DNA of 55,991 nucleotides. Origin: Nitrospirota bacterium (GTDB lineage Bacteria; Nitrospirota; Thermodesulfovibrionia; Thermodesulfovibrionales; UBA6898). Positions within the stretch are counted from its first letter, which is position 1. The number at the start of each line of letters is the position of its first letter. The position numbers and the translations under genes are program-made. The stretch spans positions 1 to 55,991 of the forward strand of contig QKDO01000062.1 of assembly GCA_003252075.1 (NCBI GenBank). Direction: 5' to 3'. Below are positions 312 through 12,600 of the stretch, piece after piece. The notes under the pieces were generated by a model. The model ran no database searches, was not told where the DNA came from, and worked only from the letters and a program-made list of their open reading frames with translations.

Positions 312-545
312 TCACCTCTGTTCCGACATCTCTGCTGATATCCCAGTTCCGCAACAATACCCGCGGCCTGCTCTTATTACTTCAACATCAGATATATCGC
401 TGCGCGTTTTTTTAGCACAACCTCCCTTCAGCACAGTGCGTCTCTTCATAAGGGGATGGTTCGTTACCCCACTCTCCATAACGATTGCCGTGAGGCCATG
501 AATCATAGACTGAATATCGGACAGTTCAACGGACGTCGTGCTCAT
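312..545 (-). CDS. small hypothetical protein, translationally coupled
   Basis: A 77-residue reading frame fills the space between the deacetylase-like gene and galE. Its ATG shares ATGA with the stop of the upstream gene, and an AGGAG lies about seven bases before the ATG, so it is arranged like a coupled operon member. I recognise no family. It has no signal peptide or membrane segment and carries a Cys-containing, Arg/Lys-rich middle. It may be a genuine small protein or merely an open stretch; the overlap and ribosome site are the only support. Confidence 0.4.
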   Translation of the reverse strand: MSTTSVELSDIQSMIHGLTAIVMESGVTNHPLMKRRTVLKGGCAKKTRSDISDVEVIRAGRGYCCGTGISAEMSEQR

Positions 546-2320
546 GAACGTCTCCTGAATCGCCGTGAATCCTGCCCGACAGGCGATCCGGGGAGAACGC
601 CTCGTCCGAAATCCTTACTCGTGACGTCAATATTCAGCATCGATGTCTTGCCGCTCTGTGAGACCAATAGCGTCGACGGCAAGACCATGTCGGGCACGTA
701 TACATTGAAAGGTTGCCCCTGCACCAGTGCCGGCGCACCATGGTTTGTCACCGCGAGATGAAGCGTACCCTCGGAAAACGACAAGTGAAGCTGCCGCCTG
801 ACAGCCGCAGCAAGCTGACGAAAATCAATAAATCGGCGCGCTCCAACATTCTCCCAATCGTCCAGGCAGTGCGTAATCCAGCGAATGCCTTCCAGGGCCG
901 GCTCCCGGTCGTGAAAGTACCCGACCACCGGCAGGCCAGAATCGAACCACGCTGCGTGGGCCTCATCAAGATAGGGGGCGCAAATGTGCGTACACCAGCA
1001 AAAACGGTTGTCCTCTCGGACGGCAAGATAGTAGCTTCCGACAAAGTGCAGCCCTGCGTCGAGGGCGTATTCCAAAGCAGCATTCGTCCACTCGTCTCCA
1101 GGACAGATAAGGGTTGTCGGTCGAACACCAAAAAAGCGGTGCAGAGCGTTAATACCTAACATGATGGGATGCGTTCGAGTCGGCCGTTTTCTGAGGACAG
1201 CTTCGGCCGATTTGCCCAATTCCCTGAACCAGGCGACGGTCGCATAACGGTCCGCTGCTTTTGCCCAAGCTGAGCTGTCGGGGTGCATATGAGTGAAACC
1301 ATGCAGCTCTACGTCCCCGAGGCCGGCCGCACGAAGCGTCTGTATTCCCTTGTATTCACCCACGTAGTCTTGGCAGAGTCGTTGTTCACCATCGGTTTTT
1401 TCAGTGTATCGTACATGTGGTGAAGGATGGACAGCTCCCGGGATTCGTGTCTCCGCATGTCCGCGGACAGTCAGTCTACCCCGCTCTGAGTCACCATCGT
1501 CAACCCATCCCGGAACATAGGCAATCGAGAGGCGGCCGCCACGTCGTTTCAGCTCCTCAGCAATCTCTGCCCAGTCACTCTCGCCCAGCTTTGGATATAG
1601 CCAAGCTTTCAGGTGGACATTCTGGGCGCCACCTGGATCGTCCATACGCAGTACCATGGTTCCCTCGAAGTCAAACCACGCTACGGGCTTTGATGATCCC
1701 CAAACGAGGAGATGTATGAGCAGAGCCGTCACTTTCCCATCGGTATCTCGCCCTTCGCTGGGGTGAAAACCAAGCGTCACGATGAGGCCCCGGCCTGCAC
1801 GCCGTGCAGCGACAACGGGGCAGTCGTCGAGGGTGACCCACATTGCGGTATCCGGCGTGAGGGACAGGGTCTGTGCTGAAAGGACCTTCCTGCAGTCCCA
1901 CCGTTGCTCTGCGCCAGGCCCAAACCACTTCAGGTAGCGGCCCGAAACGGTTTGCGATGTCGTTGAAGCCCCGGTCAGTCGCGCCAAGGGAGATCCGGTT
2001 TCAGGGGCGCGGACAACCACGAGGATGGGGTCCTCAGCGAGCCTCCGCGTCAGCCACGTAATAGTTGTTTCACTCAACGACGATGACGGATCGCCAGTCA
2101 GAACGATCCAGCGGCTTCCGCCATGCAAATCACCGATGAGAACGTTTTTCCTCTTTCGTACAATGCTAACACCCCACCCGCACACTTTCGCCAAGGTCAA
2201 CCAGTCCAAGGCCTCGCGCTGATCTGGCGGCAACCACCCGCCGGTCCCCCAGATCCGCTCGGCGACTGGTAATTCAGACTCATCTGCAACTAACAGCATG
2301 GCTTGTCGAAGGTCGTTCAT
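542..2320 (-). CDS. polysaccharide-deacetylase-like protein
   Basis: This 592-residue protein has an N-terminal ~210-residue part of unclear fold. It is followed by a region resembling the NodB/CE4 deacetylase barrel: MDDPGG near residue 226 (candidate metal-binding Asp pair) and ELHGFTHMHP near 338-347 (candidate His pair). Family knowledge: CE4 enzymes remove N- or O-acetyl groups from polysaccharides using a divalent metal. A C-terminal ~100-residue part may bind glycan. No signal peptide is visible, so it could act on a cytoplasmic lipid-linked or nucleotide-linked intermediate. The start overlaps the stop of the upstream glycosyltransferase (ATGA). The deacetylase call rests on short motifs and is moderate; the GATase-like N-terminus is unassigned. 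Confidence 0.55.
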   Translation of the reverse strand: MNDLRQAMLLVADESELPVAERIWGTGGWLPPDQREALDWLTLAKVCGWGVSIVRKRKNVLIGDLHGGSRWIVLTGDPSSSLSETTITWLTRRLAEDPILVVVRAPETGSPLARLTGASTTSQTVSGRYLKWFGPGAEQRWDCRKVLSAQTLSLTPDTAMWVTLDDCPVVAARRAGRGLIVTLGFHPSEGRDTDGKVTALLIHLLVWGSSKPVAWFDFEGTMVLRMDDPGGAQNVHLKAWLYPKLGESDWAEIAEELKRRGGRLSIAYVPGWVDDGDSERGRLTVRGHAETRIPGAVHPSPHVRYTEKTDGEQRLCQDYVGEYKGIQTLRAAGLGDVELHGFTHMHPDSSAWAKAADRYATVAWFRELGKSAEAVLRKRPTRTHPIMLGINALHRFFGVRPTTLICPGDEWTNAALEYALDAGLHFVGSYYLAVREDNRFCWCTHICAPYLDEAHAAWFDSGLPVVGYFHDREPALEGIRWITHCLDDWENVGARRFIDFRQLAAAVRRQLHLSFSEGTLHLAVTNHGAPALVQGQPFNVYVPDMVLPSTLLVSQSGKTSMLNIDVTSKDFGRGVLPGSPVGQDSRRFRRRS

Positions 2321-3609
2321 CCTCTTTGCCCGTCAAGGAAATACTGGCGTAACTGAGCTGCAACAGCAGCAGGTGAAAGATTCAGCTCGGCTTCAGTCCT
2401 TACTCTGGCACGCATCCTCGTGACGGCCTCTGGATGGTCGAGCACGTCTGAAAGAGCAGCCGCCAACGCTTTGTCATCGCCCGGGGGAATTAACCAGCCG
2501 GTCTTTCCCGTTACGACTATCTCTCCAACGCCTCCCACATCAGTGCCCACGACAGGCGTACCGCATGACATTGCCTCACCGACAACGGTGGGAAACCCTT
2601 CACTGCATGACGGAAGCACGAGACACTCGGCTGCGTTGTAAAGATTGGCCAAGGGCGCCGGGTCACCTATCCAGCCGAGAAAACGGGCACGCCCCGGCGC
2701 CATCTCGTCAGCGAGTCTCTCCAGGACCACGCAATCGGGCCCCGTGCCGACGATTAGCAGATCAACAGAGGGATGGCGAGATAAAAGGCTTGAAAACACC
2801 CGGATGAGGGCGCTTACCCGCTTGATGCGGTCGTCGAGCCGGCCTACAAAGAGAAGGTATCTCCGAGACGGATCCAGCCCGGCCGCACCGCAGGCGGCAA
2901 TCCGATTTCGCGGGGCGAACATCAATGTGTCGATGGGCGTGAGAATGACTGCAAGCTTAGCCCGTGACACGCCGTAGCGAGAAATCAGCATATCACGTTC
3001 CCGCCTGTTTGAAACGATCAGGAAGTCTGCGTGAGGGATGGTCCATCGCTTGATACGCCTTCCCATATAGACATCCGGCCTGCTGCCCGCGTGGTAAGCA
3101 ATGACCCTAACCCGAGTCAGGCGGGCCAGGAGCACGAGAATGTCGAAGCGACCGGTAGCATAATCCTGCACGAAAAATATGTCGGGTCGATCGCGCCACA
3201 GGGCGCGCACAAAGGGCAGGGAGAACAGTGCAACGTATGAGGCGATCGTCGCATAGAAGGGATAGGTCCGTCTCCACCGCCAGGCAGCCTTAGGGAGATA
3301 GAACAAACGCCAAAGAATGCGGTGCAGCCCGGATGACGGCAGGAATTTCACCTGGCAGCCGACGACTTCATGTCTGGCTGTCGAAACCTCGGGCGCGAGA
3401 GAAAACTCATACCACACGACTTCACCGACCTCGCGTTGCAACAACGTCAGAAAAGCGTGATTGCCGGTATTTGCCCATGTTGTTGCAAAGCTGTGCTGAT
3501 CGATCCCGTAGTGGGTGTAAAAGTCCTCGAACACATCGGCGTAGTCAAAGAATGCTATGAGGGGACGCTGGCGAGGTTTCACGGTGTTTTCTCTACCGAT
3601 ACGCATCAT
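2317..3609 (-). CDS. GT4-family glycosyltransferase
   Basis: A 430-residue GT-B fold glycosyltransferase. The C-terminal half shows the group-1/GT4 pattern: YLLFVGRLDDRIKR opening the nucleotide-binding domain, a GTGPD loop, then CLVLPSCSEGFPTVVGEAMS with the E-x7-E donor-binding motif, and GTPVVGTDVGGVGEIV. It should transfer a sugar from a nucleotide donor to a growing glycan at the cytoplasmic face of the membrane. The start codon doublet ATGATG overlaps the stop of the preceding gene, and its own stop overlaps the next start, so it is tightly coupled within the operon. Donor and acceptor cannot be deduced. Confidence 0.9.
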   Translation of the reverse strand: MMRIGRENTVKPRQRPLIAFFDYADVFEDFYTHYGIDQHSFATTWANTGNHAFLTLLQREVGEVVWYEFSLAPEVSTARHEVVGCQVKFLPSSGLHRILWRLFYLPKAAWRWRRTYPFYATIASYVALFSLPFVRALWRDRPDIFFVQDYATGRFDILVLLARLTRVRVIAYHAGSRPDVYMGRRIKRWTIPHADFLIVSNRRERDMLISRYGVSRAKLAVILTPIDTLMFAPRNRIAACGAAGLDPSRRYLLFVGRLDDRIKRVSALIRVFSSLLSRHPSVDLLIVGTGPDCVVLERLADEMAPGRARFLGWIGDPAPLANLYNAAECLVLPSCSEGFPTVVGEAMSCGTPVVGTDVGGVGEIVVTGKTGWLIPPGDDKALAAALSDVLDHPEAVTRMRARVRTEAELNLSPAAVAAQLRQYFLDGQRG

Positions 3610-4808
3610 GCCCGCCGGTTGCGTGGCGCAATGGTCTCAGGGCACATCGCGCGTTCGAGAAGGAGAGGCAAGATCTTTCTCGAGTCGAAATATTTTTCAG
3701 CCACTGCGCGGGCCGCGCAGCAATGGAACTCGTAGTGCATAGTGATCTCATCCAGAGCAGCAAGGGCCTCCTCCTGGTTGCTGAACGGAAAGACACCACC
3801 CGCAGCATCAAGCCACTCGGAGAAGCCAGTCTCTTGTGTAACCACCGGTCTCCCGGTCGCGAGATAGGTTGCACTTCTTTCACTGAACCATCCACAGTAC
3901 GTTTCCGCGTAGCCTTGCTTAGCGACCGAAAACTCACCCCGCGAATCTCGAATGTATCGCAGATACGCCGAAACATCGCGTGTGACCGCTAGCGGGTCGC
4001 AAAGTCGCCAACCGTGGCGCGTTAATAAGTCGCGGGGGGCAGAAGGGCTGCCCAAAGCAAGCTCTAGGACACACGCAGTGCGCTGTGGCAAGGATAGATA
4101 CGGAAGGAAGGACTCTGCCTTCATGCCGTAGCAACGCCCGCAATAGCTTACGGATCGATAGCTTTCCCACTGCATCACGGTTGTGAATCTTGCATTCGTG
4201 GGACTCGGTCCTGGCTCAACCATGTCAAGCACGATCGGATGGCGCGTCGGATGCCACTGCAGACCGTCGTCAGGAACCCGCGCCTTGGGCAGCCCGATAT
4301 TTTCTGCATAGGTGAACAGCGCAGTGTGGTGAAGGCAGAACTGCTTTTTCTCCGGGGTAGTTGCGTTATGAATCTGGGTGAACACGGGGTCCTTGTCGAT
4401 AAAGATGCGAATAGGTATCTCTGCTAACCACGACCGAAGTGGATTGACGCCGCCGAGGTTGATGAGCACATCCGCGGTCTTGCAGACCTGCATGATATTT
4501 ATCGCTAGGGGTCCATACCAGCGTGCTGCGTGGGCATCGTGGAAGGCCCATCTATCGCCCATCCCAACTCTCTTAAGGATCTCCGCCGCATATCGGAGCC
4601 CATAGCTCGGATCGATGTCGGTAGTGTGCCGGGAGGGATCGTAACAAGACGGGTATGCATCGCTATCCTCGATGAAGTAGACATCGTGACCGAGCCGCGC
4701 CAAACCCAAAAGATACTGCAGTTCACTCCATGTCATACCGCCGAGGGGGCCCCGTATGATATAGCCAAGCAGGACTATGCGGAGACCGCTCGTGACCGTG
4801 ATATCCAT
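3606..4808 (-). CDS. GT-B-like glycosyltransferase, paralogue B
   Basis: A 400-residue protein starting at MDITVTSGLRIVLLGY, one base after the previous stop. This start aligns with its neighbour's MSPKLRLVVTG; longer in-frame starts up to 4910 would run inside the neighbour. Both proteins share LGG(M/V)TW near the N-terminus, LGLARxGHDVYxxED, DPVFTQI, and a C-terminal TGRPVVTQETGFSEWL or equivalent, which matches the donor-binding end of GT-B enzymes. No DxD motif is expected in GT-B enzymes. The pair is a clear tandem duplication. Role: probable successive sugar additions in the glycan pathway. Confidence 0.75.
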   Translation of the reverse strand: MDITVTSGLRIVLLGYIIRGPLGGMTWSELQYLLGLARLGHDVYFIEDSDAYPSCYDPSRHTTDIDPSYGLRYAAEILKRVGMGDRWAFHDAHAARWYGPLAINIMQVCKTADVLINLGGVNPLRSWLAEIPIRIFIDKDPVFTQIHNATTPEKKQFCLHHTALFTYAENIGLPKARVPDDGLQWHPTRHPIVLDMVEPGPSPTNARFTTVMQWESYRSVSYCGRCYGMKAESFLPYLSLPQRTACVLELALGSPSAPRDLLTRHGWRLCDPLAVTRDVSAYLRYIRDSRGEFSVAKQGYAETYCGWFSERSATYLATGRPVVTQETGFSEWLDAAGGVFPFSNQEEALAALDEITMHYEFHCCAARAVAEKYFDSRKILPLLLERAMCPETIAPRNRRA

Positions 4809-4809
4809 A

Positions 4810-5973
4810 CTAGTGGACCGTTGCGAACGCTTCATCGAGGAGGCGCGATAGAACCTTCTCTGAGTCAAAGAAGGTTTCGGCCGCAGCCCTTGCGGCAAGA
4901 CAGTGCGCATCGTAGTTTCTGCGCACCTCCTTAATGGCGTCAGTCGCCTCGTCGAGGGTGGTGAAGGTTAATATGCCCTGTCCTACAGGGATAGTGGCTG
5001 AAAAACCGGTATCTTGCACAACAATCGGCTTCCCGGCTGCAAGGTAACAGGCCGACCGGCAGCTGAACCACCCTGAGTGCCCGACGACGTATGCGTTCTT
5101 GGCCACGCTCCACTCAGCGTAGGACGACTCAATGTAACGCCGGTAGCTGTCCATGTCGGGACAGACTTCGTCGGGATTAACGAGATGCCAGCCCTTGTGA
5201 GCCAAAAGGTCCATCGGCGTGCGACGCGTCTTTCCGGTGTTTGCGGCGATCTCGAGTACTGCCGGGGCAACACGCTGCGGGAGGTCGATGAACCGCATAA
5301 ACTCAACGTCCTTTTGACCGTATGTCTTGCCTTCATAGACGACTGGTTTGTAGCTAGTCCAATTCATTACGGTGGTAAAAACATCGCGCCGCGCCTCGGC
5401 AGTTCGCCACTCCGACAAGACGACCGGCTGGCGAGTGGCGCGCCAGTGATGCCCTGTCTGTGGAGCATTGGCAGGCAGTCCCTCGCCGAAGCTGAAATGG
5501 ACGTCGTGCGTGTCTACCATGCGTCGAAAGTCTCCCTGTCCTCGCGCGAGTTTGATTTGGGTAAACACCGGATCGGAATCAATGTAGACCATGCACCGAA
5601 TATCGCGGTACTTCTCAGGCTCGGCGAGCGTCCCGGACACGTTGATGAGGAGATCAGCGGAAGAGATAACCTCCCGCCGCTCTACCTCGGACAGTCCGAA
5701 CCACTCTGAGTGCCAGGGAAATCGGTACGCCCACTTTCCGGCAAGACCCATGTGGCTCATCACCCGAGACAGGTATTGCACATTGAAGTCGCATCCCTTT
5801 GCCACGCCGCCTTCAATGGGGTTATAAGGCCACTGTCCTGTGTCCTCGAAGTAGTAAACGTCGTGACCCATGCGGGCAAGGCCCAGGACATACTGGACAT
5901 AGTCCCATGTAACCCCGCCGAGAGGATACTGGGCGATTAATCCTGTTACGACGAGTCGTAACTTTGGTGACAT
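4810..5973 (-). CDS. GT-B-like glycosyltransferase, paralogue A
   Basis: A 387-residue cytosolic protein homologous to its downstream neighbour along most of its length. Shared features are LGGVTWDYVQYVLGLARMGH at the N-terminus, IDSDPVFTQI in the middle, and a C-terminal AAGKPIVVQDTGFSATIP followed by a TLDEA helix. That last pattern is typical of a GT-B nucleotide-sugar pocket. I chose ATG 5973, preceded by GGCAGGGA, over the upstream in-frame ATG at 6006, because the homologue starts at the equivalent place. About 200 bases without a gene separate it from the kinase upstream. Function as a glycosyltransferase is inferred from the C-terminal motif and operon context. Confidence 0.75.
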   Translation of the reverse strand: MSPKLRLVVTGLIAQYPLGGVTWDYVQYVLGLARMGHDVYYFEDTGQWPYNPIEGGVAKGCDFNVQYLSRVMSHMGLAGKWAYRFPWHSEWFGLSEVERREVISSADLLINVSGTLAEPEKYRDIRCMVYIDSDPVFTQIKLARGQGDFRRMVDTHDVHFSFGEGLPANAPQTGHHWRATRQPVVLSEWRTAEARRDVFTTVMNWTSYKPVVYEGKTYGQKDVEFMRFIDLPQRVAPAVLEIAANTGKTRRTPMDLLAHKGWHLVNPDEVCPDMDSYRRYIESSYAEWSVAKNAYVVGHSGWFSCRSACYLAAGKPIVVQDTGFSATIPVGQGILTFTTLDEATDAIKEVRRNYDAHCLAARAAAETFFDSEKVLSRLLDEAFATVH

Positions 5974-6174
5974 GGCATCGTCCCTGCCTCTACCTGTGCA
6001 GTTCATTTCAGTCTAATACCCTTGCGGATAGCCCGCTTATCTCACATTCCGGTTGTTGGCCACCGCGAAGTCGGTACGAGACCGGCGCATGTGACATCAC
6101 CAGGCACCGAACGCATCGGGAGACCTTTTGCAGGAAAAAATCGGTCCTCATGAGCGTAACCCCAGTGCGTGCCA

Positions 6175-7152
6175 CTACTGTCCTATCATTCCCCATCGTT
6201 TCCCCACATCGTACAACTGCTCAAAACGCCAGAGTGAACCCTCTTCTCTCCTCTCCTTATCATTGTCACCAAGCCACCGGAAAGAAAGGTAAACTCTTGC
6301 TGCATCAAGCCTTGCCGCGAAGTCTGGCGGTGCATCCCCAAGCCAGCGAGTCCGGCAGTACGCTAGCTCACACTCCCCTGCAACGTCTACAGCCCACCCC
6401 TCTGTCAAAGCTGCAAGGTCTATCTCTCCTGCTCCCACCGCTGCCGATTCCCAGTCGACCGGATAAATCACACCGTCTCTTACGAGAATATTCTTAGGAT
6501 AGAACTCACCATGAATGACCGTCGGACGACATGACAGGAGGAGTGCCGTGAACTCTTCGAAACGTTTGCAGAGAGCAGCGAGCCAGGGGAACCGCAGGTG
6601 CAAAGGACCGGCAAAGCGGGATGCACGACGCGGCCACCCCAGATAGTATTCCTTATCATACGTTCCGAGAAATGATAACCCTTGCTCGACCACGAGGGTT
6701 TCGCAGGCGGCATGGAATTGCCCTATCCATTGAGCACATGCGATGAGCGCGTCTGGTTCCTTGTACATCAACCGCAGACAGTCATCCAAGTACTCGAGGA
6801 TCAGCCACGTCTGCCCCGTCGTTACATCGGTATAGGTGCCGTAGAATCTCGGCATTGAATTCCCCGAATGCCCCAGCACACGGCGATAGACCTCGGCCTC
6901 GTACACCACGCCTCCCCGGTGGCCGTGACTGTCGTAGTTCTGTCCTCCCGAATACTTGCAGAACAGGCGCAATGTCCTGCCGTCGTTGAGTCTGCAGGAC
7001 ACGACTTCAGAGGGAAACGTACTCCGGTAAATGTGGGCCTCACGATGTAGGACAGTCACAGGACAAGGAGCTGAAAGACTCCCGGAAAGGACACTGGTGA
7101 GTCCCTCCGTCAGGGAGGCGGTGTCAGGGAATTCTGAGACAGGCAAGGTCAT
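6175..7152 (-). CDS. aminoglycoside-phosphotransferase-like kinase
   Basis: A 325-residue APH/choline-kinase-fold protein. A candidate ATP-binding Lys lies at ~66 (LFCKYSGG). The Brenner-type catalytic loop is VIHGEFYPKN at ~212-221, and the metal-binding segment is PVDWE at ~231. In most family members the loop reads HGD; here the catalytic position is Glu, as in some uncharacterised APH subgroups. The ATG overlaps the exporter's stop (ATGA). Because it sits inside a glycan operon, its substrate is more likely a sugar, choline-like head group or glycan than an antibiotic. That is inference; no resistance role is indicated. Confidence 0.8.
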   Translation of the reverse strand: MTLPVSEFPDTASLTEGLTSVLSGSLSAPCPVTVLHREAHIYRSTFPSEVVSCRLNDGRTLRLFCKYSGGQNYDSHGHRGGVVYEAEVYRRVLGHSGNSMPRFYGTYTDVTTGQTWLILEYLDDCLRLMYKEPDALIACAQWIGQFHAACETLVVEQGLSFLGTYDKEYYLGWPRRASRFAGPLHLRFPWLAALCKRFEEFTALLLSCRPTVIHGEFYPKNILVRDGVIYPVDWESAAVGAGEIDLAALTEGWAVDVAGECELAYCRTRWLGDAPPDFAARLDAARVYLSFRWLGDNDKERREEGSLWRFEQLYDVGKRWGMIGQ

Positions 7153-9014
7153 ACGGTCTCTCCAGCGCCACTGATAGTTCGTGGATACTGACCAATGCCG
7201 CCTGTGCCGTACCTATCCTGCTCTGGGAATGGTCCATGCTGCACTATCTCTATCTGTTGATGATAGAGACTCGCATAGAGCTGTCCCTGCGTAATGAGAC
7301 CTTCATGGGTTCCCTGTTCAACAATCTCGCCGTCCTTTACGACAAGGATGCGGTCGGCATTGCGGATCGTGGACAGACGGTGAGCAATAATAAAGGTGGT
7401 GCGGTCCTTCATCAGGCGTTTGAGCGAGTTCAGCAAAAGAAATTCCGTCCCGGCATCCAGTGCTGAGGTCGGCTCATCAAGGATGAGAACAGGAGCATTC
7501 ATAAGGAATGCGCGGGCTATGGATAACCGCTGCTTTTCTCCACCGGAAAGGGTGGCCCCCCTCTCACCTATCACGGTATGGTATCCATCCGGTAAACGGC
7601 GGATAAATTCGTCGGCGTTCGCTGCTTCAGCAGCGGTTCTGATCTCATCAAGCGAAGCTTCCGGTCTGCCATATGCAATATTTTCGGCAACGGTCAAAGG
7701 GAAGATAAAGGGATCCTGAAGAACCATGGCCATCTGCTGCCGCAAGGAATGAATCCTGATATGGCGTATATCATGGTCGTCTACGGTGACGCTCCCGGAC
7801 CAGGGATCAAAAAATCTGACGAGAAGGTTTACCAAGGTCGTCTTTCCGCTTCCTGTCGGCCCTACTATGGCGGTGACCTCTCCGGGCCTCGTCTCGAACG
7901 AGACCTCATGCAATACTTCCTTGCCAGGTTCATAGCCGAATGTAACCCGGTCATAGCGGACACTCCCCCGGATCCTAACATCTGTGGCTTCGGGCAGGTC
8001 CTGAACTTCCTGAGGTATATTGAGTATCTCCAATACTCTGTCGGTATTGGCTGATGCCCCCTGCCAGGTTGAGGCTGAATAGCTTATCGCATTCAGCGGT
8101 TCGTACAGGGATGCAAGATAGGACAGGAATACGAGGATTGTACCGACCGTCATGCTGCCATCCAGCGCGTAACGGGCGCCCATCCACATTATCGTTGCTG
8201 TTCCAAGAGCAGTGACGAGACCGACCGTGAGTTTGAACCACATGCCTGCCAGCGTGCTTCGCTGGTAGGCAATGACCGTTTCATCAGCATATTTACGGAA
8301 ACGTTCATGTTCAAGCTCTTCCCGTGAAAAGGCCTGAACAGCAGGGATGGCGCTGAGCGTCTGCTGCACCAGGGACATCATCCGTCCTTCCAGATCACGC
8401 CTCTCCCTGCTGCGGTCTTTCATCGGTTTTCCGAAAATGTGGATACTGAGCAGAAGAAACGGTACCACCCCTAGGGAAAGAAGCGTCATGACCGGCTGCA
8501 GATGCCACATGATGAAAAAAAGAGCGAAGAGGGTAACAAAAGACTGCAGAAGCGGCAGCAGCACGCTCGTAACCTTGATTTGCAAACAATAAACATCACC
8601 GGTAACACGAGATATCGTGTCGCCAACAGGGCGGCGATTATGGAACATGAGGGAAAGCCTTTGCAGATGTAAAAACAGGTCAGCACCGAGCGAGTAGGTG
8701 ATCCTCTGCCCGAGCCCCACCGTAACGAAATTCCCGGCAATGGACATAAGTGTCCCGATAAGAAAGATCAGGACCGTACTGACGCAGACCCAGAAAAGCA
8801 ACCCCTTCACACCCGACGACCACGGCAGCACCGCAAGAGTGCCGACGAGCTTATCGGGAAGCGGCTGACTGCCAAGAATGACATCTACGAGGATCTTCAT
8901 CGGCCACGGACGCAGGACCTCCAGCCCAATGACCGCGAGCATCGTAATAAGGGTGATGCCCAAACTGCGCCAGTGTGGACGCACATAGCGGAACATCTGC
9001 AGTTCATTTTTCAT
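7149..9014 (-). CDS. ABC-type exporter half-transporter (MsbA/NdvA-like)
   Basis: A 621-residue fused permease/ATPase. About six membrane helices occupy residues ~20-310 (ABC type I exporter fold). The nucleotide-binding domain follows with Walker A GPTGSGKTT, Q-loop LQDPFIF, signature LSGGEKQ, Walker B VLILDEPTSALD and switch AHRLST. Such proteins work as homodimers exporting lipid-linked or free glycans; NdvA/ChvA, the cyclic glucan exporter, is one branch. I use ATG 9014 with GGAG in front; a longer frame begins at 9191 but would run into the upstream gene. It lies 65 bases after the hydrolase/GT2 fusion gene and overlaps the kinase gene, so it is probably the export step of this operon. 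Confidence 0.9.
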   Translation of the reverse strand: MKNELQMFRYVRPHWRSLGITLITMLAVIGLEVLRPWPMKILVDVILGSQPLPDKLVGTLAVLPWSSGVKGLLFWVCVSTVLIFLIGTLMSIAGNFVTVGLGQRITYSLGADLFLHLQRLSLMFHNRRPVGDTISRVTGDVYCLQIKVTSVLLPLLQSFVTLFALFFIMWHLQPVMTLLSLGVVPFLLLSIHIFGKPMKDRSRERRDLEGRMMSLVQQTLSAIPAVQAFSREELEHERFRKYADETVIAYQRSTLAGMWFKLTVGLVTALGTATIMWMGARYALDGSMTVGTILVFLSYLASLYEPLNAISYSASTWQGASANTDRVLEILNIPQEVQDLPEATDVRIRGSVRYDRVTFGYEPGKEVLHEVSFETRPGEVTAIVGPTGSGKTTLVNLLVRFFDPWSGSVTVDDHDIRHIRIHSLRQQMAMVLQDPFIFPLTVAENIAYGRPEASLDEIRTAAEAANADEFIRRLPDGYHTVIGERGATLSGGEKQRLSIARAFLMNAPVLILDEPTSALDAGTEFLLLNSLKRLMKDRTTFIIAHRLSTIRNADRILVVKDGEIVEQGTHEGLITQGQLYASLYHQQIEIVQHGPFPEQDRYGTGGIGQYPRTISGAGETV

Positions 9015-9079: not shown

Positions 9080-11665
9080 TTATTCCGTTCTGACGGCATG
9101 AAGGAACGTCGACGTGGCTGCGGAACAGTCCCCGAACGCCCGTGCGCCGAACATCACGGCAAAGGCTCCCAACAGGGCGGAGGCGATCCATGCATGATCA
9201 ATGAAAGCTAGACCGAAAAAAACAGCGAGCAAGATCGTCACAAAGAGCACCGCGGCAGGAACTTTGGGCCAGGCGCGAATAAGAACCATCTGCCTGCCTC
9301 CCCCGTGCTCCTCTATTGCCATGCGCAAACGCACCGCTCCGAACAATCCGCCCCGCACTTCCAGATCGTGGCGGTCGAAATCACCACCGCGCCTGATCAC
9401 CGCCCCCTGCAAACGCAAAGCATTTTCTACCGATGTCACTCTTTCTGCAGGATCGCGCCATTGCTCTTTCCATATTCTGACGGTGCGCATGCACGGCAGA
9501 GAAATATCTGATGAGGCACGCCGCCGCAATGGGGTGAGACCGCGGCTCAGCCGTCCCATAAGACGCGCGACAGGCTGCATCAGGTGAAGGCAGGCAGTCA
9601 CCGCATGTATCCGGAGGCGGTCCCAGGCACAAAAAGAGCAGGAATACAACGGTATGTTCGCTGCATTGATTACTGCCTGAACAATCGGAGCGCCGACAGC
9701 GGCTGCCAACAGCGGCAGCATGTATAGGAGAGGGGACCATACCGTGCCCACGGCCGCAAGAACAGCGAGAAGAGCGATGACAAGATACCACTCCGGCATC
9801 ATCATGATCGAAAAGAAAAGGGGCGGCTGCGCCTGATACAGACGCTGAAAAAGGGCGGTGCCCCATACGCCATGATAAATGCGCCATTTTCCGGTCTTGA
9901 TGGGCTGTGATAGTCCTTTTCCGTAGAGCCGTCCAGTCCATGTTATATGTCCCGCCGCATTGTATTTTTGCGGCCATTTCTGCTCCAAAAGCGCTTCGGC
10001 CTGTCCGTAGCCGCGCTGCTGCTTCCAGTAGGTCTTCAGGGAACCGCGCCGGTAATGCCATACAACTGCGGCGGCATTAAAGCCGATCTTCCAGCCCCTC
10101 TCCTGGATCTTCCAGCAGATGTCCACGTCATCACCTGCAGTGCGGAAACGGGGATCAAATCCGCCGATTGCTGAGAGAGCTTCTCTGCGGAACGCCATAT
10201 TGCAGCCGGCAATATGTTCTGCTACTCGGTCTGAGAGGAGCACATGGACCGGCCCTCCCGGTGCATGCACAACGCTGTTGGTAAAGATCCCGTTGTCGGG
10301 CGGCGCAATATTAGGTCCCCCTACACCCATGAATGAAGTCGACAGGAACGTATGGGCGATGTAGGTGAGCCAATCTTTGTCAGGATATGCGTCATCATCG
10401 ATATACGCCACGATTTCACCGGTTGCCTCCTGCCAACCGGTGTTGCGGGCGTTGCTTAGTCCGCGGTTCTCGGTCGAGATAAGGCGAACATCAAACTCTC
10501 GGGCTATGGCTGGCGTGCTGTCACGGGAGCCGTCGTTGACAACGATAACCTCATAATCGGGATAATCCAGTCTGCTGAGACCCTGAAGCGTGTCCCGAAT
10601 AGTTCGCGAACCATTATAACTGCAGACAACAACTGAAATTCTCGGCCAGGCTGTTTCCGGTGGGAAGGGCACCTCATGAAAAGCCCTGCTGACCGAAAAA
10701 AGGGATGGCTTGGGATCTCTCTCCCGTGTGGTGAGACCAAAATTCCAGTCATCGATGTCGCATCCTCCCCTATGCCACTCGTCGGTCCAGGCAAAGACAA
10801 TGGCACCGGCGCATCCCGAAGCAAAGGCTGAGCGGACCTGCCAGTCAAGACTTTTCGCCTGTACATCATCTCCGTTACGCAGGCTGTCCAGACCGATCTC
10901 GGCCATTATCAGGGGCCGCTCGCCGGCGATGTTCTGGATACGAGCTATATAGGACTCGAGATGCCCTTTCGCTTCCAGGTACACATTAAAACAGACTATG
11001 TCGAGGAACGGCAGCTGAAGATACTCTGTAGTGGGAAAGTTCACATAGGTGACCAAACTCCCGGGGTCAGCATTCTTTACGATATCATATAATTCTCTGA
11101 TAAAATTCTCGATACGCTGCCGTCCGTGCCAGCGCACGATGGAAGGGGGTATTTCATTACCGACGGCAAAGCAGAGCACTGCAGGATGAGCGGCGCAACC
11201 GATTACGGCATCGCGTACACGGCGCTTGATTGCCTCCACCCGTTCGCTGTCATCGAGGAATGCGATATGCTGCTCCCAGGGAATGCCCACCATGACGTAT
11301 AACCCGTGTTCCTTCGCAGCCTCAAGAAGCCACATTGGCGGTACGGTATAGGTACGCACCGTGTTCATTCCGGATGAGGCTATGAGAGAGAAATCTTTTC
11401 GCACAACTGCCGGGTTTGGGTAATCGCATCCGTCAGCTCCAGGACGGAACGTACCATAGGTAACACCGCGTACCCAGAGCTTCTCACTTCCCGCATAAAT
11501 AAATTTGCCAAGGGCTTTTGTTCGTTGGTCAGGAGCATGAGCTCTCTTCGGCAGTGATGGGGGCAGTTGCTCAAGATCTTCTTTCGGGGAGGTCAGGACA
11601 CGCTCATCCGCCTTGGCAAGCCCTGCTGCAATATGGAACATTGCTCTGTTTTCCCTCATAGGCAA
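9080..11665 (-). CDS. glycoside hydrolase (clan A-like) fused to GT2 glycosyltransferase, membrane-anchored
   Basis: An 861-residue two-enzyme protein. Residues ~55-335 resemble a (beta/alpha)8 glycosidase of the GH2/GH5/GH17 type, with candidate acid/base FAVGNE (Glu ~171) and candidate nucleophile IMAEIG (Glu ~256). Residues ~343-600 are a GT2 domain with VVVCSYNG, VIVVNDGSRDSTP, the metal-binding YIDDDAYP and AGDDVD. Hydrophobic segments follow at ~640-700, and two more lie near the C-terminus. There is no signal peptide, so the sidedness of the hydrolase domain is unclear. It is the first gene of the operon, behind a riboswitch. A fusion of transglycosylase/hydrolase and polymerase is reminiscent of NdvB/NdvC-type cyclic glucan synthesis, but the product is unknown. 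Confidence 0.85.
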   Translation of the reverse strand: MPMRENRAMFHIAAGLAKADERVLTSPKEDLEQLPPSLPKRAHAPDQRTKALGKFIYAGSEKLWVRGVTYGTFRPGADGCDYPNPAVVRKDFSLIASSGMNTVRTYTVPPMWLLEAAKEHGLYVMVGIPWEQHIAFLDDSERVEAIKRRVRDAVIGCAAHPAVLCFAVGNEIPPSIVRWHGRQRIENFIRELYDIVKNADPGSLVTYVNFPTTEYLQLPFLDIVCFNVYLEAKGHLESYIARIQNIAGERPLIMAEIGLDSLRNGDDVQAKSLDWQVRSAFASGCAGAIVFAWTDEWHRGGCDIDDWNFGLTTRERDPKPSLFSVSRAFHEVPFPPETAWPRISVVVCSYNGSRTIRDTLQGLSRLDYPDYEVIVVNDGSRDSTPAIAREFDVRLISTENRGLSNARNTGWQEATGEIVAYIDDDAYPDKDWLTYIAHTFLSTSFMGVGGPNIAPPDNGIFTNSVVHAPGGPVHVLLSDRVAEHIAGCNMAFRREALSAIGGFDPRFRTAGDDVDICWKIQERGWKIGFNAAAVVWHYRRGSLKTYWKQQRGYGQAEALLEQKWPQKYNAAGHITWTGRLYGKGLSQPIKTGKWRIYHGVWGTALFQRLYQAQPPLFFSIMMMPEWYLVIALLAVLAAVGTVWSPLLYMLPLLAAAVGAPIVQAVINAANIPLYSCSFCAWDRLRIHAVTACLHLMQPVARLMGRLSRGLTPLRRRASSDISLPCMRTVRIWKEQWRDPAERVTSVENALRLQGAVIRRGGDFDRHDLEVRGGLFGAVRLRMAIEEHGGGRQMVLIRAWPKVPAAVLFVTILLAVFFGLAFIDHAWIASALLGAFAVMFGARAFGDCSAATSTFLHAVRTE

Positions 11666-11778
11666 CCCTAGCCTTGAAACCGACCTTTCTACCAGTCTAC
11701 TTCTTCAGCCTTACCCCATCTTCAGCTCGATAATCGTCTGTAAACGGTACTGCATCTACCGGATAACAGACTCCCCCT

Positions 11779-11820
11779 AAAAAAAAACCGAACATGCCGA
11801 AGACTTCTTCAGTTGTTCGG
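11779..11820 (-). terminator. intrinsic terminator of the riboswitch expression platform
   Basis: On the minus strand an outer stem CCGAACA/TGTTCGG encloses an inner stem CTGAAGA/TCTTCGG and is followed by nine T residues (11779-11787). It starts at the last base of the predicted aptamer P1 stem and ends 113 bases before the GH-GT2 start codon. It is therefore positioned to be controlled by the riboswitch. Confidence 0.85.
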
Positions 11821-11905
11821 CAGCTCGGCTATCTCTCATTGCTGAATAAGACCCGTTGCTTTCCGCCCGCACCTCACGGTGCGTTTGGCTTTATCGAGCG
11901 TCTGC
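11820..11905 (-). promoter_or_regulatory. GEMM-I-family riboswitch (c-di-GMP or 3',3'-cGAMP aptamer)
   Basis: The minus strand reads GATAAAGCCAAACGCACC, then a GTGA tetraloop closing GCACC/GGTGC. It continues as GGGCGGAAAGCAACGGGTCT and ends with AGATAGCCGAGCTGCC. This matches the order of GEMM-I conserved blocks: AAAGGCAAACC, GNRA hairpin, GACGCAAAGCCACGGGTCT, AGATAGCCGGG. A P1 helix GCTC (11899-11896) with GAGC (11826-11823), extended by GCA/TGC, replaces the usual CCC/GGG pair, a covariation that supports the fold. By my alignment to the Vibrio Vc2 aptamer the base equivalent to G20 is A, as in the cGAMP-binding GEMM-Ib subgroup; this numbering is approximate. Several conserved bases deviate. 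Confidence 0.8.
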
Positions 11906-11909
11906 TCCA

Positions 11910-11938
11910 CACTTAACAGACAATCGCTGCAAAGTCAA
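11910..11938 (-). promoter_or_regulatory. candidate promoter of the glycan operon
   Basis: The minus strand has TTGACT at 11938-11933, 17 bases, then a weak -10 hexamer (TAAGTG). Transcription would begin near 11903, which coincides with the first base of the riboswitch aptamer. The -35 matches consensus at five of six positions; the -10 is poor, so an activator or another sigma factor is possible. Confidence 0.35.
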
Positions 11939-11944
11939 CCCTGG

Positions 11945-12600
11945 TTATCCTTTAACTTTCAGGGCATAGATTTCTTTCCTGCAATAGTGATGCAATTTGT
12001 ATACCAAGATGGAAGTTAATCTGCAGCATAAGTCAATACTAAACAGCGCAACCCTAATAAAAATAAGGAAAATACCGAGAGGCTGCCCCCCCATCATTTT
12101 GGGATTTGTCAAGGAAGATAGTGGTCTTCTCACCATATCGTTCATGTAAAGTCCTTGTTGCATTCGTCGACGAACTACCACCCTCTGATACACTTCTCGA
12201 CAAAAGTGTTTCCCCTGGAGACAATGAATCCCTGAGAAACAACAATGAGATTGCCCTTTTTGCCTCGCAGAGAACCCTTCTTTTCATTAGGAATAGTAAC
12301 GCGCAGGGAATCGGAATTATGTGCAGCATCCCTGACCAGGAACTGCTGGCACCACTCTATCCTATTCAACAGCCCAGAGTAGGGTCTACACTTCAGGGGC
12401 AGTTGAGGCAGTGCCTTCACATCGTCGCAGTACCGCATGTTCGGAAAGTCCGGATCGTTTCAGGATGCAGGTGATATTTGTCAACAATGCAGCCGGGATA
12501 ACAAGATAGGAACCCACACCTGATACCTCAGAGGGTCCAGGCTCGCATCGGCGAATAGGGCATAGCTGCTGTCTCTGACTGGAACCGGAAGGGCCGAAAA
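11945..12600. other. about 650 bases without a convincing gene
   Basis: Several overlapping open stretches of 60-120 codons exist on both strands, but none shows a ribosome site, recognisable motifs or codon use like the neighbours. The minus frame 12438-12175 looks marginally protein-like, and it may be a remnant. I see no terminal repeats or transposase motifs. Confidence 0.5.

Follow-up and report, generated by a model that had tools for sequence, protein, structure and literature searches.

A conserved and apparently undescribed fusion of a clan GH-A glycosidase domain with a GT2 glycosyltransferase, encoded beside a type-IV ABC exporter in Nitrospirota and other phyla

The stretch of DNA analysed here (hereafter the window; 55,991 nucleotides from a Nitrospirota bacterium with an assembly size of 2.86 Mb) carries, on its minus strand, a gene for an 861-residue protein in which a glycosidase-type (GH) domain and a family 2 glycosyltransferase (GT2) domain are combined in a single chain. 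This fusion gene is the first of a same-strand cluster, in which it is followed by an ABC exporter, an APH-like kinase, two proteins of a family that we call c2, a GT4 glycosyltransferase, a 592-residue protein and GalE. The features of the region are the following, from the upstream end of the cluster:

11815..11898, minus strand: c-di-GMP-I-GGC riboswitch aptamer, upstream of the fusion gene (RF03167)
11779..11829, minus strand: intrinsic terminator with a U9 run (RNA folds)
9083..11665, minus strand, stop codon at 9080-9082: GH-GT2 fusion gene, 861 aa (open reading frame, domain matches)
7149..9014, minus strand: type-IV (ABCB/MsbA-like) ABC exporter half-transporter (ABC_membrane and ABC_tran; MsbA_rel, 446 bits)
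6175..7152, minus strand: APH-type kinase-like protein, 325 aa (PF01636, 27 bits, cut-off 23.2)
4810..6006, minus strand: c2 family protein 1, about 400 aa, probable GT-B-like glycosyltransferase (alignment)
3606..4910, minus strand: c2 family protein 2 (family clustering, alignment)
2317..3609, minus strand: GT4 glycosyltransferase (PF00534, PF13692)
542..2320, minus strand: 592-aa protein without a family match, also present in locus L001
3..305, minus strand: GalE (UDP-glucose 4-epimerase), N-terminal part, the gene being cut by the contig end (clusters with the GalE proteins of L001 and L002)

The fusion reading frame is a 100% match in its own genome. The coordinates given for it by a first-pass annotation, made from the sequence alone, were found to be right; as to the strand, it is the minus one, the plus strand having no open frame at 9083-11665. 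As listed, the frame begins with TTG, with an ATG two codons further on, and the start of the exporter gene was set at the internal Met that avoids an overlap.

From the N-terminus, the protein consists of a clan GH-A (beta/alpha)8 domain, a GT2 domain directly joined to it, and membrane helices; Pfam and AlphaFold thus bear out the combination of a glycosidase domain, a complete GT2 domain and a membrane part in one polypeptide, which had been read from the letters before. Its parts are (residue numbers refer to the protein):

10661..11521, minus strand: clan GH-A (beta/alpha)8 domain, residues 49-335 (Pfam GH2_C, GH157 profile, AlphaFold)
11153-11155, minus strand: candidate acid/base E171 (invariant, 31/31)
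10898-10900, minus strand: candidate nucleophile E256 (invariant, 31/31)
9986..10639, minus strand: GT2 domain, residues 343-560 (PF00535, 106.7 bits, Pfam cut-off 23.3)
10391-10399, minus strand: DDD of the GT2 domain (invariant Asp)
10121-10138, minus strand: AGDDVD, residues 510-515 (invariant Asp)
residues 549-554, minus strand: QQxxYG motif of the GT2 domain (invariance across homologues)
9659..9790, minus strand: first pair of predicted membrane helices, residues 626-669 (AlphaFold, hydropathy)
9263..9487, minus strand: small alpha/beta domain, residues 727-801 (AlphaFold secondary structure)
9086..9256, minus strand: second pair of predicted membrane helices, residues 804-860 (AlphaFold, hydropathy)

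Conservation was assessed in 31 non-redundant homologues, with 40-98% identity to the fusion protein. Since homologues with 43-98% identity align along nearly its entire length, the fusion is not a product of chance. One locus (L014) was excluded from the counts because its fusion is split over two overlapping reading frames (9965-12492), which is likely a frameshift in a metagenome-assembled genome (MAG), or else a broken gene, and the L075 fusion lacks its start at a contig end. In L074 the GH domain seemed to be lost, a reading that was rejected, the gap being a run of masked bases (X).

The predicted fold of the GH domain is that of clan GH-A: by the AlphaFold model and the structures matching it, the barrel carries the candidate acid/base glutamate after beta4 and the candidate nucleophile glutamate after beta7. 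In isolation the domain reaches 48.3 bits against GH2_C (PF02836, Pfam cut-off 21), and the accessory jelly-roll and Ig-like domains of GH2 enzymes (PF02837, PF00703) have no match in the fusion protein at E 0.1. When a profile of 13 homologues is compared with the PDB, LaGH157 (9fz9/9g4n/9g5g) comes first (E 4.9e-16), with GH2 enzymes and GH158 next. LaGH157 is also the top structural match of the model of the isolated domain (pLDDT 89.5; Z 32.4, rmsd 2.5 over 291 residues), GH158 is again among the near matches and, because GH2 beta-glucuronidases trail LaGH157 by just 1-3 Z units, this ranking is no family assignment. The catalytic glutamates align with those of the GH157 and GH158 beta-1,3-glucanases, and the residue altered in the LaGH157 E224A chain falls under E256; nevertheless, the identity to LaGH157 is about 20%, and the GH157 and GH158 enzymes were solved as free-standing proteins with no GT2 domain. 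Membership of GH17, GH94 or GH189 was considered and rejected for want of a match (for GH17, among the Pfam matches of 13 members at E 0.1).

Five residues of this domain (E171, E256, W130, N209 and W293) are invariant in all 31 sequences, and four others nearly so (R104, H133 and N170 in 30 of 31, Y229 in 28 of 31). Such a set is what the active site of a retaining clan-A enzyme should contain, and from it we infer catalysis. The glutamates had been proposed as a catalytic pair, E171 within GNE and E256 within AEIG, and this is where they lie; their loss in homologues was looked for, and the pair is kept in 31/31 sequences. The proposal of a catalytic fold fares equally well, given that the model is matched by catalytic GH157, GH2 and GH158 enzymes. 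Loss of activity is known for some GH-fold domains, and a non-catalytic, glycan-binding platform could be envisaged here too, but across 31 sequences from several phyla the glutamate pair does not vary and its surroundings hardly do, making this reading very improbable in our judgement. As for the substrate, a beta-1,3-glucan is suggested by analogy with GH157 and GH158 alone, and a glycan containing galactose or uronic acid would be compatible with the GalE neighbours and the GH2 similarity.

In the GT2 domain, the aspartates D378, D423, D425, D512, D513 and D515, several of them within YIDDDAYP (residues 421-428) and AGDDVD, are invariant in the 31 sequences. The QQxxYG motif, of which QQxxY is invariant, stands where BcsA-like processive synthases have QxxRW. 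The earlier description as a "GT2 polymerase/transferase" is therefore upheld for GT2 by the invariant aspartates, whereas "polymerase" is an inference, the motif being QQxxYG and not QxxRW. By profile, the closest characterised GT2 enzyme is MftF (TIGR03965, the nearest curated NCBIfam model), an oligoglucosyltransferase that adds up to nine beta-1,4-linked glucoses to its acceptor (PMC7491314); nevertheless, the 153.5 bits are under the 280-bit equivalog cut-off, and MftF has no GH domain and a different operon. One may then ask whether, like MftF, the GT2 domain transfers sugar to a lipid or small-molecule acceptor, with the exporter flipping the glycoconjugate and the GH domain trimming it. 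The MftF score, the missing QxxRW motif, the inclusion of lipid flippases in the exporter class and the several further glycosyltransferases of the operon all speak for such a route, but that score remains below its cut-off and no acceptor-biosynthesis genes common to the loci were seen, and we consider it unlikely, at perhaps one chance among several.

All membrane-length helices of the AlphaFold model come after the GT2 domain (residues 626-639, 644-669, 804-822 and 826-860), a probable interfacial helix (residues 680-707) follows the first pair, and the small alpha/beta domain at 727-801 has no Pfam family match. In the full-length model (mean pLDDT 76.7) the GH and GT2 domains lie side by side; it has no membrane helix before the GH domain or between the two, in agreement with hydropathy in 14 homologues. 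Given that the nucleotide sugar of the GT2 domain is cytosolic, and that no membrane segment intervenes, the GH domain is predicted to be cytosolic, so that both domains should face the cytosol; the earlier idea that they share one side of the membrane is in line with this prediction. A periplasmic placement of the GH domain was rejected, there being no signal or membrane segment ahead of it. In five loci of Acidobacteriota (L070, L071, L072, L073 and L075) the protein is longer (1250-1293 aa) and ends in an NHL propeller, preceded by another hydrophobic stretch.

The predicted location bears on what the GH domain may do. Many synthases of exopolysaccharides (EPS) are accompanied by hydrolases. 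PgaB is one example (PMC5933820). By this precedent, and considering that the closest relatives, GH157 and GH158, are beta-1,3-glucanases, the domain could be a cytosolic hydrolase serving release, length control or the clearing of misplaced chains, the product being a linear oligo- or polysaccharide. Yet the hydrolases of EPS systems are usually separate and periplasmic, whereas this domain is fused and predicted to be cytosolic, and we regard plain hydrolysis as possible but rather doubtful.

As to the neighbours of the fusion gene, in 27 of the 29 loci having enough downstream sequence (counted from the locus maps), an exporter gene of one family accompanies the fusion, the exceptions being L028 and L079. 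The exporter of the window scores 296.7 bits with the chvA model (cut-off 585) and better with MsbA_rel, and among solved proteins P-glycoprotein, TM288 and Sav1866 come closest to it in sequence. The family is generic and so does not predict the cargo, and the candidate description as a proven glucan exporter was dropped, generic ABCB proteins scoring best. The c2 family was found in 15 of 20 loci. In Nitrospirota it occurs in 5 of the 6 fusion-bearing genomes against 13 of the 389 others, a co-occurrence whose p-value (Fisher, 6e-7) is optimistic, as the 395 genomes are related. Its Pfam match, to Glyco_trans_1_2, is below threshold only, and it resembles the wbaZ-1 mannosyltransferase weakly (E 0.03); by these matches c2 is probably a GT-B enzyme. 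It has no curated family, and it is conserved with the exporter across phyla. The APH-type family is also present in L001, L002 and L014, and the GalE proteins of L001 and L002 score above the TIGR01179 cut-off. Two Nitrospirota loci without the fusion (L066 and L067) have c2 near the same type of exporter; both also encode a GT28_C-DUF2334 fusion protein close by, and L066 has heparinase-like and APH proteins in addition. These two loci represent a related glycan system without a GH-GT2 fusion. Elsewhere (L010-L012, L076 and L077), proteins of CBM9/DUF5916 type, about 890 aa long in Granulosicoccaceae, are encoded downstream or nearby, and they are possible outer-membrane partners.

Upstream of the fusion gene, the covariance model RF03167 finds its aptamer with 68.1 bits (gathering cut-off 59, E 5e-14), and it does so ahead of the fusion gene in L002 (65.5 bits) and L001 (63.9 bits) as well; no riboswitch was found in the other scanned loci and lineages, and the three loci that have it are all of the window lineage. 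In the genome of the window there are twelve RF03167 copies, of which four exceed the cut-off. The 5' arm of the terminator is the 3' strand of the aptamer, and the hairpin is kept in L001 and in L002, the latter with a compensated change. Sharing this strand, aptamer and terminator are mutually exclusive, and a ligand-ON switch is thus predicted: binding of the putative ligand, c-di-GMP, should avert termination and turn the operon on. Compared with L001 (1677-2008), a locus 95% identical to the window, the window (about 11668-11673) lacks about 332 nt of the leader between riboswitch and reading frame, and L002, like L001, has a long leader; the short leader of the window reflects either a deletion or an assembly difference.

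Full-length fusions are found in 6 of 395 Nitrospirota genomes, 20 of 247 Acidobacteriota genomes and 2 of 244 Cyanobacteria genomes, and additionally in Proteobacteria and in an actinobacterial MAG (Thermoleophilia), that is, in at least five phyla (Nitrospirota, Acidobacteriota, Proteobacteria, Cyanobacteria and Actinobacteriota). The closest relatives of the window locus are L001 and L002, from Nitrospiraceae. Identity reaches 55-60% across phyla, most Nitrospirota members being 56-57% identical among themselves, and none of the other genomes that the 395-genome survey lists for the same genus or family has the fusion. This combination, of a cross-phylum identity as high as that between most Nitrospirota members and an absence from those listed genomes, suggests that the gene has spread by horizontal transfer; plasmid and phage collections gave no match at E 1e-40, and hence no sign of a mobile carrier there. 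In eight genomes searched through their loci the GH domain occurs solely as the fusion, and across the 247 Acidobacteriota genomes its profile finds fusions only, bar one remote match (E 5.6e-15, in a 737-aa frame): fusion to GT2 is near-obligate for this GH domain. The trees of the GH and GT2 domains show no conflict among well-supported splits, which fits a single fusion event. The riboswitch, the ABC-exporter module and the cross-phylum range go beyond what the first-pass annotation had found.

Two kinds of characterised synthase invite comparison. NdvB and "Orphan" of pseudomonads, which are GH17-GT2 cyclic beta-1,3-glucan synthases, have the same order of an N-terminal retaining clan GH-A barrel, GT2 and membrane helices. 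However, in NdvB a signal peptide and three membrane helices precede the GH17 domain, for which a periplasmic location is given, and the GT2 domain carries QRxRW (PMC10237404), whereas the fusion has no GH17 match, no segment intervening between GH and GT2, and QQxxYG. The cyclic glucan synthase CGS combines glycosyltransferase, transglycosylase and phosphorylase domains, all of them cytosolic (PMC10901819), its GH189 domain performing retaining transglycosylation (PMC11842490). As is predicted for the fusion, CGS unites in one membrane protein a glycosyltransferase and a retaining glycan-processing domain that both face the cytosol; CGS is partnered by a type-IV ABC exporter, and the exporter encoded beside the fusion gene is a candidate for such a partner. 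Unlike the fusion, CGS is built of GT84, an (alpha/alpha)6 GH189 domain and GH94, none of which has a Pfam match in the fusion protein, where a (beta/alpha)8 barrel is found instead. The fusion resembles the cyclic-glucan synthases in its logic and is outside all of their families by domain content. Among open-access papers, a coverage that makes the absence of others weak evidence, only NdvB and CGS were found as such fusions. We conclude that the fusion is real and conserved, and that as a synthase architecture it is apparently undescribed, a variant of the known GH-plus-GT synthases.

This likeness also leads to the earlier idea that the GH domain is a transglycosylase, cyclising or branching the nascent glycan, with the product exported like a cyclic beta-glucan. 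The logic shared with CGS and the GH17-GT2 NdvB, the retaining clan-A active site and the ABC exporter nearby favour it, as does a weak resemblance to the GH72 glucanosyltransferases, seen in 11 of 13 members (best E 5.5e-8) and, for the window protein, at 17.9 bits, under the 25.9 gathering score of PF03198. On the other hand, the nearest families (GH157, GH158 and GH2) are mainly hydrolases, sequence cannot separate hydrolysis from transfer, and no auto-glycosylation or primer site was identified in the fusion. We take transglycosylation as a serious candidate that nevertheless falls short of being probable.

The reading that we favour, and hold to be somewhat more probable than its negation, is the more general one of a c-di-GMP-controlled synthase whose cytosolic, retaining GH domain would process the nascent glycan before its export by the ABC transporter. 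The fusion would be a membrane-anchored, cytosol-facing enzyme, with synthesis and editing of the product combined in one polypeptide. The GT2 domain, putatively inverting, dependent on a UDP-sugar and closest to MftF, would elongate the chain; the GH domain would capture the growing chain as a glycosyl-enzyme formed on E256, E171 serving as acid/base, and would then release, shorten, branch or close it. The end product, probably a short or cyclic glycan with additions made by the neighbouring glycosyltransferases, would be carried out by the adjacent type-IV ABC exporter, and in the window lineage the upstream c-di-GMP-I-type riboswitch would switch the operon on. A bolder version, which we put forward tentatively and think doubtful as a whole, is that of an undescribed synthase class present in at least five phyla: a new clan GH-A family, known solely in fusion with a GT2 domain that lacks QxxRW, would act as a cytosolic transglycosylase that cyclises or branches the glycan before ABC export, under the control of a c-di-GMP riboswitch in Nitrospirota.

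If true, this would amount to an independent invention of the cyclic-glucan-synthase logic. The cyclic glucans made by CGS and NdvB serve in osmotic adaptation, in interaction with hosts and in antibiotic tolerance, and a third architecture, with a cytosolic barrel-type glycosidase and a GT2 domain in one chain and a neighbouring exporter, would demonstrate that polymerisation and editing came together independently. The fusion offers a single-chain enzyme for defined oligosaccharides, and the riboswitch provides a ready prediction of when it is made.
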